Origin: Hymenopus coronatus
Taxonomy: Eukaryota > Arthropoda > Insecta > Mantodea > Hymenopodidae
Assembly (NCBI GenBank): GCA_030762935.1
Contig: CM060891.1
Location: 1,368,001 to 1,432,000 of the forward strand
DNA length: 64,000 nt
Direction: 5' to 3'
The position numbers were made by a program, and so were the translations under genes. The first letter of the stretch is position 1. Each line of letters opens with the position of its first letter. Under the pieces are notes generated by a model. The model was not told the origin of the DNA. It worked only from the letters and a program-made list of their open reading frames with translations, and did no database searches. Below, in pieces: positions 20,520-56,286 of the stretch.

Positions 20520-22350
20520 CTGAAACACACAAACAAGGCTATTGTATGAAGTGTGTTGATGAGCCTCGTCCAGGACAATAACACCATAGGACATTAACAT
20601 AGTGTCTGAAACACACAAACATGACTACTGTATGAAGTGTGTTGATGAGCCTCATCCAGGACAATAACACCATAGCACATTAACATAGTGTCTGAAACAC
20701 ACAAACAAGACTACTGTATGAAGTGTGTTGATGAGCCTCGTCCAGGACAATAACACCATAGCACATTAACATAGTGTCTGAAACACACAAACATGACTAT
20801 TCTGCAAACTGTGTTGATGAGCCACATCCAGGACAATAACACTATAACACATTAACATAGTGTCTGAAATACACAAACAAGACTACTGTATGAAGTGTGT
20901 TGATGAGCCCTTTCCAGGACAATAACACCATAGCACATTCACATAATGTCTGAAACACACAAACAAGACTACTTTATGAAGTGTGTTGATGAACCTCATC
21001 CAGGACAATAACACCATAGCACATTCACATTCTGCCTTAAACACACAAACAAGACTACTTTAAGAAGTGTGTTGATGAGCCTCATCCAGAATAATAACAC
21101 CAAAACACATTAACATAGTGTCTGAAACACACAAACATGACTATTGTACGAAGTGTGTTGATGAGCCACATCCAAGACAATAACACCATAGGACATTAAC
21201 ATTATGCCTGAAACACACAAACATGACTATTGTACGAAGTGTGTTGATGAGCCTCATCCAGGCCAATAACACCATTGGACATTTACATACTGTCTGAAAC
21301 ACACAAACATGACTACTGTACGAACTGAGTTGATGAGCCTCATCCAGGACAATAACACCATAACACATTAACATAGTATCTGAAACATACAAACATGACT
21401 ATTGTTAGAAGTGTGTTGATGAGCCTCGTCCAGGACAATAACACCATAGTACATTAACATAGTGTCTGAAACACACAAACATGACTACTGTATGAACTGT
21501 GTTGATGAGCCTCGTCCAGGACAATAACACCATAGGACATTAACATAGTGTCTGAAACACACAAACAAGACCTCTGTATGAAGTGTGTTGATGAGCCTCA
21601 TCCAGGACAATAACACCATAGCACATTAACATACTGTCTTAAACACACATACAAGAACACTGTATGAAGTGTGTTGATGAGCCTCATCCAGAACAATAAC
21701 ACCATAGCACATTAACATAGTGTCTGAAACACACAAACAAGACTACTGTATGAAGTGTGTTGATGAACCCCGTCCAGGAAAATAACATCATAGCACATTA
21801 ACATACTGTCCGAAACACACAAACAAGACTACTGAATGAAGTGTGTTGATGAGTCTCGTCCAGGACAATAACACCATAGCACATTAACAAAGTGTCTGAA
21901 AAACACAAACACGACTACTGTATGAAGTGTGTTGATGAGCCTCGTCCAGGACAATAACACCATATCACATTAACAAGGTGTCTGAAACATACAAACATGA
22001 CTACTGTATGAAGTGTGTTGATGAGCCTCATCCAGGATAAAACACCATTGCACATTAACCATTAACATAGTGTCTGAAACACACAAACATGACTACTGTA
22101 TGAAGTGTGTTGATGAGCCTCGTCCAGGACAATAACACCATAGCACATTAACATAGTGTCTGAAACACACAAACAAGACCACTGTAAGAAGTGTGTTGAT
22201 GAGCCTCATCCAAGACAATAACACCCTAACACATTAACATAGTGTCTGAAACACACAAACAAGACTATTGTACGAAGTCTGTTGATGAGCCTCGTCCAGG
22301 ACAATAACACCATAAGACATTAACATAGTTTCTGAAACACACAAACATGA

Positions 22351-54500: not shown

Positions 54501-56286
54501 CAGATACTTGAGTTTTGTTCTGTCTGAAGTGTCTGTGTACGCCACCAAGAGCTGCAGTGTTATGTTAGATATACCAACCTGTCATGGCTTCCCTCAGTAA
54601 CATGCCGTCTGTCAGATACTTGAGTTTTGTTCTGTCTGAAGTGTTGGTGTACGTCACCAAGAGCTGCAGTGTTATGTTAGATATACCAACCTGTCATGGC
54701 TTCCCTCAGTAACATGCTGTCTGTCTTGAGTTTTGTTCTGTCTGAAGTGTCTGTGTACGCCACCAAGAGCTGAAGTGTTATGTTAGATATACCAACCTGT
54801 CATGGCTTCCCTCAGTAACATGCCGTCTGTCAGATACTTGAGCTTTGTTCTGTCTGAAGTGTCTGTGTACGCCACCAAGAGCTGCAGTGTTATGTTAGAT
54901 ATACCAACCTGTCATGGCTTCCCTCAGTAACATGCCGTCTGTCACATACTTGAGCTTTGTTCTGTCTGAAGTGTCTGTGTACGCCACCAAGAGCTGCAGT
55001 GTTATGTTAGATATACCAACCTGTCATGGCTTCCCTCAGTAACATGCCGTCTGTCTTGAGTTTTGTTCTGTCTGAAGTGTCTGTGTACGCCACCAAGAGC
55101 TGCAGTGTTATGTTAGATATACCAACCTGTCATGGCTTCCCTCAGTAACATGCCGTCTGTCAGATACTTGAGCTTTGTTCTGTCTGAAGTGTCTGTGTAC
55201 GCCACCAAGAGCTGCAGTGTTATGTTAGATATACCAACCTGTCATGGCTTCCCTCAGTAACATGCCGTCTGTCTTGAGTTTTGTTCTGTCTGAAGTGTCT
55301 GTGTACGCCACCAAGAGCTGCAGTGTTATGTTAGATATACCAACCTGTCATGGCTTCCCTCAGTAACATGCCGTCTGTCAGATACTTGAGTTTTGTTCTG
55401 TCTGAAGTGTCTGTGTACGCCACCAAGAGCTGCAGTGTTATGTTAGATATACCAACCTGTCATGGCTTCCCTCAGTAACATGCCGTCTGTCTTGAGTTTT
55501 GTTCTGTCTGAAGTGTCTGTGTACGCCACCAAGAGCTGCAGTGTTATGTTAGATATACCAACCTGTCATGGCTTCCCTCAGTAACATGCCGTCTGTCAGA
55601 TACTTGAGCTTTGTTCTGTCTGAAGTGTCTGTGTACGCCACCAAGAGCTGCAGTGTTATGTTAGATATACCAACCTGTCATGGCTTCCCTCAGTAACATG
55701 CCGTCTGTCTTGAGTTTTGTTCTGTCTGAAGTGTCTGTGTACGCCACCAAGAGCTGCAGTGTTATGTTAGATATACCAACCTGTCATGGCTTCCCTCAGT
55801 AACATGCCGTCTGTCAGATACTTGAGCTTTGTTCTGTCTGAAGTGTCTGTGTACGCCACCAAGAGCTGCAGTGTTATGTTAGATATACCAACCTGTCATG
55901 GCTTCCCTCAGTAACATGCCGTCTGTCAGATACTTGAGCTTTGTTCTGTCTGAAGTGTCTGTGTACGCCACCAAGAGCTGCAGTGTTATGTTAGATATAC
56001 CAACCTGTCATGGCTTCCCTCAGCAACATGCCGTCTGTCTTGAGTTTTGTTCTGTCTGAAGTGTCTGTGTACGCCACCAAGAGCTGCAGTGTTATGTTAG
56101 ATATACCAACCTGTCATGGCTTCCCTCAGTAACATGCCGTCTGTCAGATACTTGAGCTTTGTTCTGTCTGAAGTGTCTGTGTACGCCACCAAGAGCTGCA
56201 GTGTTATGTTAGATATACCAACCTGTCATGGCTTCCCTCAGTAACATGCCGTCTGTCAGATACTTGAGCTTTGTTCTGTCTGAAGT
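51590..56286 (-). repeat. Tandem array 3: ~42 copies of a 112/106-bp unit made of the exon 3 donor junction
   Basis: On the gene strand each unit holds the last 64 nt of exon 3 (ACTTCAGACAG... to GCCATGACAG) followed by the first 48 nt of intron 3 (GTTGGTATATC... to GTACACAGAC). The true exon 3/intron 3 junction at 56223/56222 is the first unit in transcription order. A common variant lacks the six bases GTATCT, an in-frame loss of Tyr-Leu, giving 106 bp; the two lengths are interspersed. The copies are far more uniform than those in arrays 1 and 2, so this array is younger or better homogenised. The left-most copy (51590-51640) is the most decayed. Every full unit keeps ACAG|GTTGGT, the native 5' splice site. 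Confidence 0.97.
51770..52620. repeat. 638-bp higher-order duplication in array 3, marked by a truncated unit
   Basis: A unit missing most of its intron part (gagccaacccgtcatgg) occurs at about 51840 and again at about 52480. The flanking 200+ bp are identical at an offset of 638 bp. A rare deletion shared at a fixed offset shows block duplication of about six units. Confidence 0.85.

Follow-up and report, generated by a model that had tools for sequence, protein, structure and literature searches.

Satellite arrays derived from both splice junctions of a single intron in a DHX33-type helicase gene of Hymenopus coronatus

The third intron of a DHX33-type DEAH-box helicase gene is filled by two tandem arrays, one repeating the sequence around its own 3' splice site (array 1) and the other the sequence around its own 5' splice site (array 2). 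The gene lies on the minus strand of the window, the whole stretch of 64,000 nucleotides of Hymenopus coronatus DNA that was analysed. At one end of each array stands the true exon as last unit, flush with the repeat and in register with it. The arrays probably go back to two separate, short duplications, each spanning a splice junction. These probably expanded through unequal exchange, and would have been tolerated since the copies are predicted to be spliced out as intron. If this is right, the birth of these satellites was tied to splicing by selection and not by mutation, and the ends of exons would be safe seeds for satellites and for the growth of introns.

The gene and its third intron

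Exons 1 to 4 of the gene, all on the minus strand, give 231 open codons once spliced, and GT and AG are found at each of the three complete introns. Exon 1 (63307..63566, from the first ATG) has an open frame and a GT donor; exon 2 (58044..58176), placed by its open frame and splice sites, encodes GETGSGKTTQ, the ATP-binding motif; exon 3 lies at 56223..56388, and exon 4 (20386..20519) encodes the DEAH box, VIVLDEAHE. Exon 1 draws weak tblastn matches from insect orthologues (best E 4e-4). The join between exons 3 and 4 is gap-free against all four of the insect DHX33 proteins displayed (P0121, P0128, P0130 and P0132), P0121 being counted as an insect protein by its rank among the protein matches. 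P0121 is also the best protein match, with 69% identity at 84% query coverage. Many of the named proteins among the best 120 of 4275 and of 3878 matches are DHX33; cockroach, cricket, stick insect and locust proteins are among the best matches, and the high-scoring P0122 and P0127 are non-insect. Solved relatives are DHX8, DHX35 and others, and Pfam places AAA_22 above its cut-off and DEAD just under it (24 vs 26 bits). The protein matches, the open frame, the GT/AG introns and the gap-free join in orthologues uphold the assignment made in a preliminary description of this DNA, which had proposed a DHX33-type helicase with a coding sequence of 231 codons.

The C-terminal part of DHX33 gave no tblastn match at E up to 1 in positions 1-20379 with 14 related proteins, at least two of which are incomplete. 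What we take to be the human DHX33 sequence gave one match at the low end of the window by tblastn (E 5.2), regarded as chance. As the rest of DHX33 is unmatched at this end, the later exons would fall outside the window.

Intron 3 runs from 56222 down to 20520, a length of 35,703 bp. It had been given as 20520 to 56286; the first of these positions stands, while the second takes in 64 nt of exon 3, the true end being 56222. Tandem repeat makes up 92.8% of the intron (28,520 bp in array 1 and 4,618 bp in array 2), in agreement with the earlier figure of about 93%. In gene order, exon 3 leads into array 2; some 2.5 kb of non-array sequence separate this from array 1, which adjoins exon 4. The true 5' splice site (56221..56222, minus strand), ACAG followed by GTTGGTATAT, is the sole frame-keeping donor of 41. 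Array 2, the donor-side satellite, occupies 51605..56222 on the minus strand by TRF and unit alignment, with 42 full intronic units adjoining the unit that contains the exon end; its degenerate distal-most copy lies at 51584..51604 (minus strand). The middle of the intron that belongs to neither array (49056..51583) separates this from the truncated distal-most copy of array 1 (49009..49055, minus strand). Array 1, the acceptor-side satellite, follows at 20520..49008 on the minus strand, with 332 full units of about 86 bp by TRF and wraparound alignment, and the intron closes at 20520..20529 (minus strand) with 10 nt (TGTGTTTCAG) that include the true 3' splice site. The TRF calls themselves are an 86-bp array at 20442-49036 (333 copies) and a 112-bp array at 51597-56287 (43 copies).

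On its exon side, array 2 ends in 64 nt of exon 3 (56223-56286), which form its terminal unit, and array 1 ends likewise in the first 78 nt of exon 4 (20442-20519). Unit alignment thus recovers, for both arrays, the arrangement first described, with the exon at the end and the array reaching into the intron. A blastn search with exon 3 returns 43 matches including itself (worst E 7e-18) and one with exon 4 returns 334 including itself (worst E 2e-4); every one is on the gene strand, and the copies all share the orientation of the gene, as had been claimed. Besides the exons themselves, matches to exon 3 are confined to array 2 and matches to exon 4 to array 1. Exons 1 and 2, searched by blastn with 50-nt flanks, have no copies; the four matches obtained besides the exons themselves (13-26 nt, E 0.14-0.79) were taken as chance.

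The acceptor-side array

Array 1 was cut into units by wraparound alignment in exon phase, which yields 332 full units; a truncated copy stands at the distal end, and the start of exon 4 forms the last unit. The 86-bp unit consists of the first 76-78 nt of exon 4 together with the last 10 nt of the intron. Its description as the start of exon 4 plus the 3' splice site, in some 330 copies, stands, with the intron share corrected to just 10 nt. The exon alignment covers 76 of the 86 positions, and the consensus is identical to exon 4 at 69 of these 76. Identity of the 332 single units to exon 4 ranges from 0.697 to 0.934 (mean 0.855), and mean pairwise identity between units is 0.854. Similarity between unit and exon no better than chance would have spoken against an exonic origin; the array 1 unit scores 110 against exon 4, where the maximum of 200 dinucleotide shuffles is 33, and the array 2 unit scores 130 against exon 3, where that maximum, again of 200, is 26.

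A GT kept by exon 4 and by the distal-most truncated copy is absent from all 332 full units. A GT at both ends with a derived monomer between them is as expected for a duplicated exon start that was amplified internally. The 20 distal units have an exon identity of 0.876, slightly above the array mean, and the three units adjoining exon 4 stand at 0.908, 0.895 and 0.921, with the fourth at 0.776. At positions 16 and 38 the unit beside exon 4 (20520-20605) agrees with the exon where most units do not, possibly through gene conversion by the exon or because it is a recent copy. At its distal edge the array begins with a copy that starts mid-exon, and the native 3' end of intron 3 is absent there.

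Within array 1 there are 25 runs of at least five consecutive units that recur at a fixed lag, each unit matching its counterpart at 95% identity or more; some of these runs share units. The longest comprises 23 units at 98.9% identity to units 26 places away (26210-24226 vs 23966-21982). Set against a mean pairwise identity of 0.854, these runs point to ordinary segmental amplification. TRF also reports closely similar 78-bp variant units at 32440, 37152, 43329 and 46417, and these four sites are marks of repeated block duplication.

The acceptor AG is intact in 324 of the 332 units and the full TTTCAG in 241. No sign of coding constraint is seen in the copies: over the first 54 positions of the units, variability at codon positions 1, 2 and 3 is 0.069, 0.098 and 0.101, and position 3 has no real excess over position 2.

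The donor-side array

The 42 full intronic units of array 2 fall into three lengths (25 of 112 bp, 15 of 106 bp and two of 90 bp), flanked by the unit that holds the end of exon 3 and, distally, by a degenerate scrap. The unit runs from the final 64 nt of exon 3 through the 5' splice site to 48 nt past the donor, so that the exon alignment covers 64 of its 112 nt. The count of about 42 copies of 112 or 106 bp, built from the end of exon 3 and its 5' splice site, is therefore confirmed. The array is far more homogeneous than its counterpart, with a mean pairwise identity of 0.981 over ungapped columns against 0.854, and 13 of the 42 units are identical to exon 3 across all 64 nt. The donor GT is intact in 40 of the 42 units and the exact 11-nt donor string in 39.

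The make-up of the donor unit may need one amendment, since the 48 nt described as intronic may hold more sequence derived from exon 3. Within them, a stretch (GCAGCTC..TTGG.TGGC..TACAC) is collinear with a more upstream part of exon 3. Against dinucleotide shuffles this likeness has a p of 0.107 at ordinary gap costs and of 0.014-0.017 at three cheap-gap settings, with one of which nine of 1514 pieces of the window reach that score; the test came after the likeness had been seen, and the gap costs were picked afterwards. The distal-most copy of the array also resembles exon 3, with a p of 0.001 in 5000 shuffles. From these comparisons it is possible, and perhaps probable, that the 48 nt are partly exon-derived. 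If the likeness is real, the native intron share of the unit would be only about 23 nt and the segment first duplicated would have been longer.

Predicted consequences for splicing

With the true sites included, the intron offers 41 donors and 325 acceptors. Among the 13,325 pairings of these, one is open and in frame, and it is the true outer pair. Each of the 40 decoy donors brings in a stop at codon 191, read in frame from the donor sequence itself (GGT TGG TAT ATC TAA), and all 324 inner acceptors break the frame. The idea that the inner sites provide alternative isoforms was rejected, as every one of them breaks the frame. Missplicing would thus give an early stop and, probably, nonsense-mediated decay of the message.

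Upstream of the exon 4 acceptor, 13 of 18 bases are pyrimidines; copied exon supplies eight of the 18, and the 10 minus the AG lie in the native intron end. Branch-site-like strings occur at -44 and -31, both within copied exon sequence, and are candidate branch sites, the simple pattern used being a crude guide that finds no match in the 60 nt upstream of exon 2. Coding sequence of exon 4, copied upstream, would now serve this acceptor as branch site and as part of its pyrimidine tract.

The correct sites would be picked by exon definition. This is suggested by the sequence just upstream of the used acceptor, which is itself an array unit. The used acceptor would be set apart by a 134-nt exon with its own donor downstream, and true and decoy sites would be told apart mainly by their position relative to the intact exon. 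The locus would thereby offer a natural test of exon definition, in which 324 acceptors and 40 donors with copied surroundings compete against the true sites within one intron.

Origin of the two arrays

The content of the units and their flush exon ends support the earlier proposal that the two satellites arose from the intron's own two junctions. A duplication lying wholly inside an exon would show in the mRNA. One that straddles a splice junction, on the other hand, can leave the message as it was if the site beside the intact exon is used, the extra copy becoming intron. This filter at the junction would by itself yield arrays that end on an exon, reach into the intron and share the orientation of the gene.

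As to the number of events, the array 1 and array 2 units have no detectable similarity to one another (score 21 vs a shuffle maximum of 26), and this, together with their unequal pairwise identity, argues for two. Of the two alternatives that the preliminary description had left open, a mechanism acting at splice junctions and two independent events, the second fits better. Their difference in homogeneity is a poor clock, as exchange can make an old array look young.

It is quite unlikely that selection instead maintains the copies for a role in tuning DHX33 output, as decoy splice sites or poison exons. The decoys are near-intact (324 of 332 acceptors and 39 of 42 exact 11-nt donor strings), and the frame is lost in all 13,324 other pairings, much as with a poison exon. 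However, the A and the G of the acceptor rank only 17th and 13th in conservation among the 86 positions of the array 1 unit; many other positions are at least as well conserved as the AG, and selection on decoy sites was rejected for this reason. Array 2 is too homogeneous to reveal selection. The decoy acceptors are uneroded yet not exceptionally conserved, which speaks neither for nor against a role.

It is very unlikely that a process acting at splice junctions made both arrays, whether re-replication coupled to the spliceosome or to R-loops, or rolling-circle reinsertion. Such a process would account for the fact that both junctions of a single intron were hit and that nearly every copy carries a splice site, and there is a moderate skew of G over C on the gene strand in array 1 (about 0.08-0.22 per kb). 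The edges of the units, however, do not fall on the junctions: those of array 1 lie 76 nt inside exon 4 and 10 nt inside the intron, those of array 2 lie 64 nt inside exon 3 and 48 nt downstream of the donor. Both arrays are flush with their source exon, as local tandem duplication predicts, while reinsertion could land anywhere. The skew in array 2 is small (0.015-0.052 per kb, within 52001-56000), and exons 1 and 2, presumably spliced as often, are without copies. The junction-specific mechanism proposed earlier is therefore not supported.

An assembly artefact, with repeats collapsed, expanded or misjoined beside the exons, is highly improbable. Long arrays are where assemblies fail, and the copy number of the arrays may be wrong through assembly. 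The units of array 1, however, are about 15% apart, with traceable block duplications, an exon-like copy stands at the distal edge of that array, and both exons continue unbroken from repeat into unique sequence. There is equally little chance that a single rearrangement of exons 3 and 4 seeded both arrays together: they share an intron, an orientation and an exon as terminal unit, but their units are without detectable similarity and very different in homogeneity, and copies of each exon are found in one array only.

Unit edges off the junctions, flush exons, re-duplicated blocks and two unrelated units of unequal homogeneity together point to local duplication followed by unequal exchange, twice over. 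Two features add steps to this account. The first copy on the acceptor side would have carried only 10 intronic nt, so that the downstream acceptor needed a new branch site at once, or else the original acceptor was lost; the filter on this side is thus not automatic at birth. In addition, the distal edge of array 1 lacks the native 3' end of intron 3, which calls for some subsequent deletion or rearrangement.

A wider proposal, that introns grow by copying their own ends, with both ends repeatedly seeding satellites as a general route to large introns invisible in the mRNA, is tentative and on balance doubtful. If it is true, this gene is the first case known to us of intron growth filtered by splicing, and such growth would also turn exon sequence into branch site and pyrimidine tract.

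Other elements in the window

A third satellite at 1582-16497, in what would be intron 4, consists of 137 copies of a 109-bp unit (mean pairwise identity 0.914), and this unit carries on the gene strand a string that resembles a 3' splice site (TTCTCTCCTTGTGTTTTAG). A tie to exons 1-4 or to the units of the other two arrays was considered and rejected, as alignment scores are within the shuffle range in both orientations; blastn gives just three 12-nt matches in array 1 (E 0.75). Exon 5, outside the window, may be considered as a source; C-terminal parts of DHX33 gave no match at the low end of the window beyond the chance one above. At 16868-17479 on the plus strand, a stretch of 204 open residues has a weak match to zf-RVT (E 0.0051, below Pfam's cut-off) and looks like the remnant of a non-LTR retroelement. 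In the middle of intron 3, at about 50060-50795 on the plus strand, are two short stretches that we take to resemble the GIY-YIG ends of Penelope-like elements, a likeness unsupported by Pfam. At about 58282-58420 (plus strand) lies what we presume to be a tRNA-like head with a tail behind it, possibly a SINE; ARAGORN and Rfam, run over the window, found nothing.

Comparison with known systems

Both arrays consist of many head-to-tail copies, with homogenised blocks in array 1, and can be regarded as satellites or minisatellites. A minisatellite that spans an exon-intron boundary is known from the 31-bp VNTR at exon 13 - intron 13 of CBS. The arrays described here span such boundaries in the same way; the CBS repeat differs in being short, polymorphic and restricted to one junction.

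A close published parallel is IFI6 (6-16, G1P3; Turri et al. 1995), in which tandem-repeat units act as alternative splice donors (PMC4526556). There too the repeat unit carries the splice site of the adjoining exon, as do 40 of 42 donor and 324 of 332 acceptor units here. However, IFI6 involves one junction and its inner donors give variant mRNAs, whereas in the present gene both junctions are involved and the inner sites are predicted to break the frame. The suggestion that such arrays are not a described class must accordingly be narrowed: a single splice-donor minisatellite is known, while the case with two junctions was not found in excerpts of the open-licence PMC literature, which is weak evidence of absence.

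Introns can also be gained by tandem duplication of a piece of exon that contains a proto-splice site (PMC2891723, PMC4974935). As in the present gene, copied exon sequence becomes intron by way of duplicated splice signals. Intron gain, however, creates a new intron from one duplication, whereas here an existing intron grew from both ends, with hundreds of copies.

Satellites derived from genes are represented by CapA, which comes from an intron of NOS1AP, is single-copy in several eutherians and was amplified in Platyrrhini (Valeri et al. 2018; PMC8210747). In both cases a piece of a gene was amplified into satellite DNA. The source of CapA is intronic, whereas here it is mostly exon with a splice site, and the arrays in the window are flush with it. 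A review of satellite DNA gives rDNA spacers and transposable elements as sources, an exon source being unnamed in the part available (PMC5615363). Introns that are mostly satellite DNA are found in the working Drosophila genes kl-3 and kl-5, whose giant introns hold megabases of simple repeats (PMC6508621); in the present gene the repeats amount to tens of kilobases and come from the two junctions of the intron itself. Thus, as far as the excerpts cited go, splice-donor minisatellites, intron gain by duplication, gene-derived satellites and satellite-filled introns are each known singly, and what would be new in this gene is their combination at both ends of one intron.
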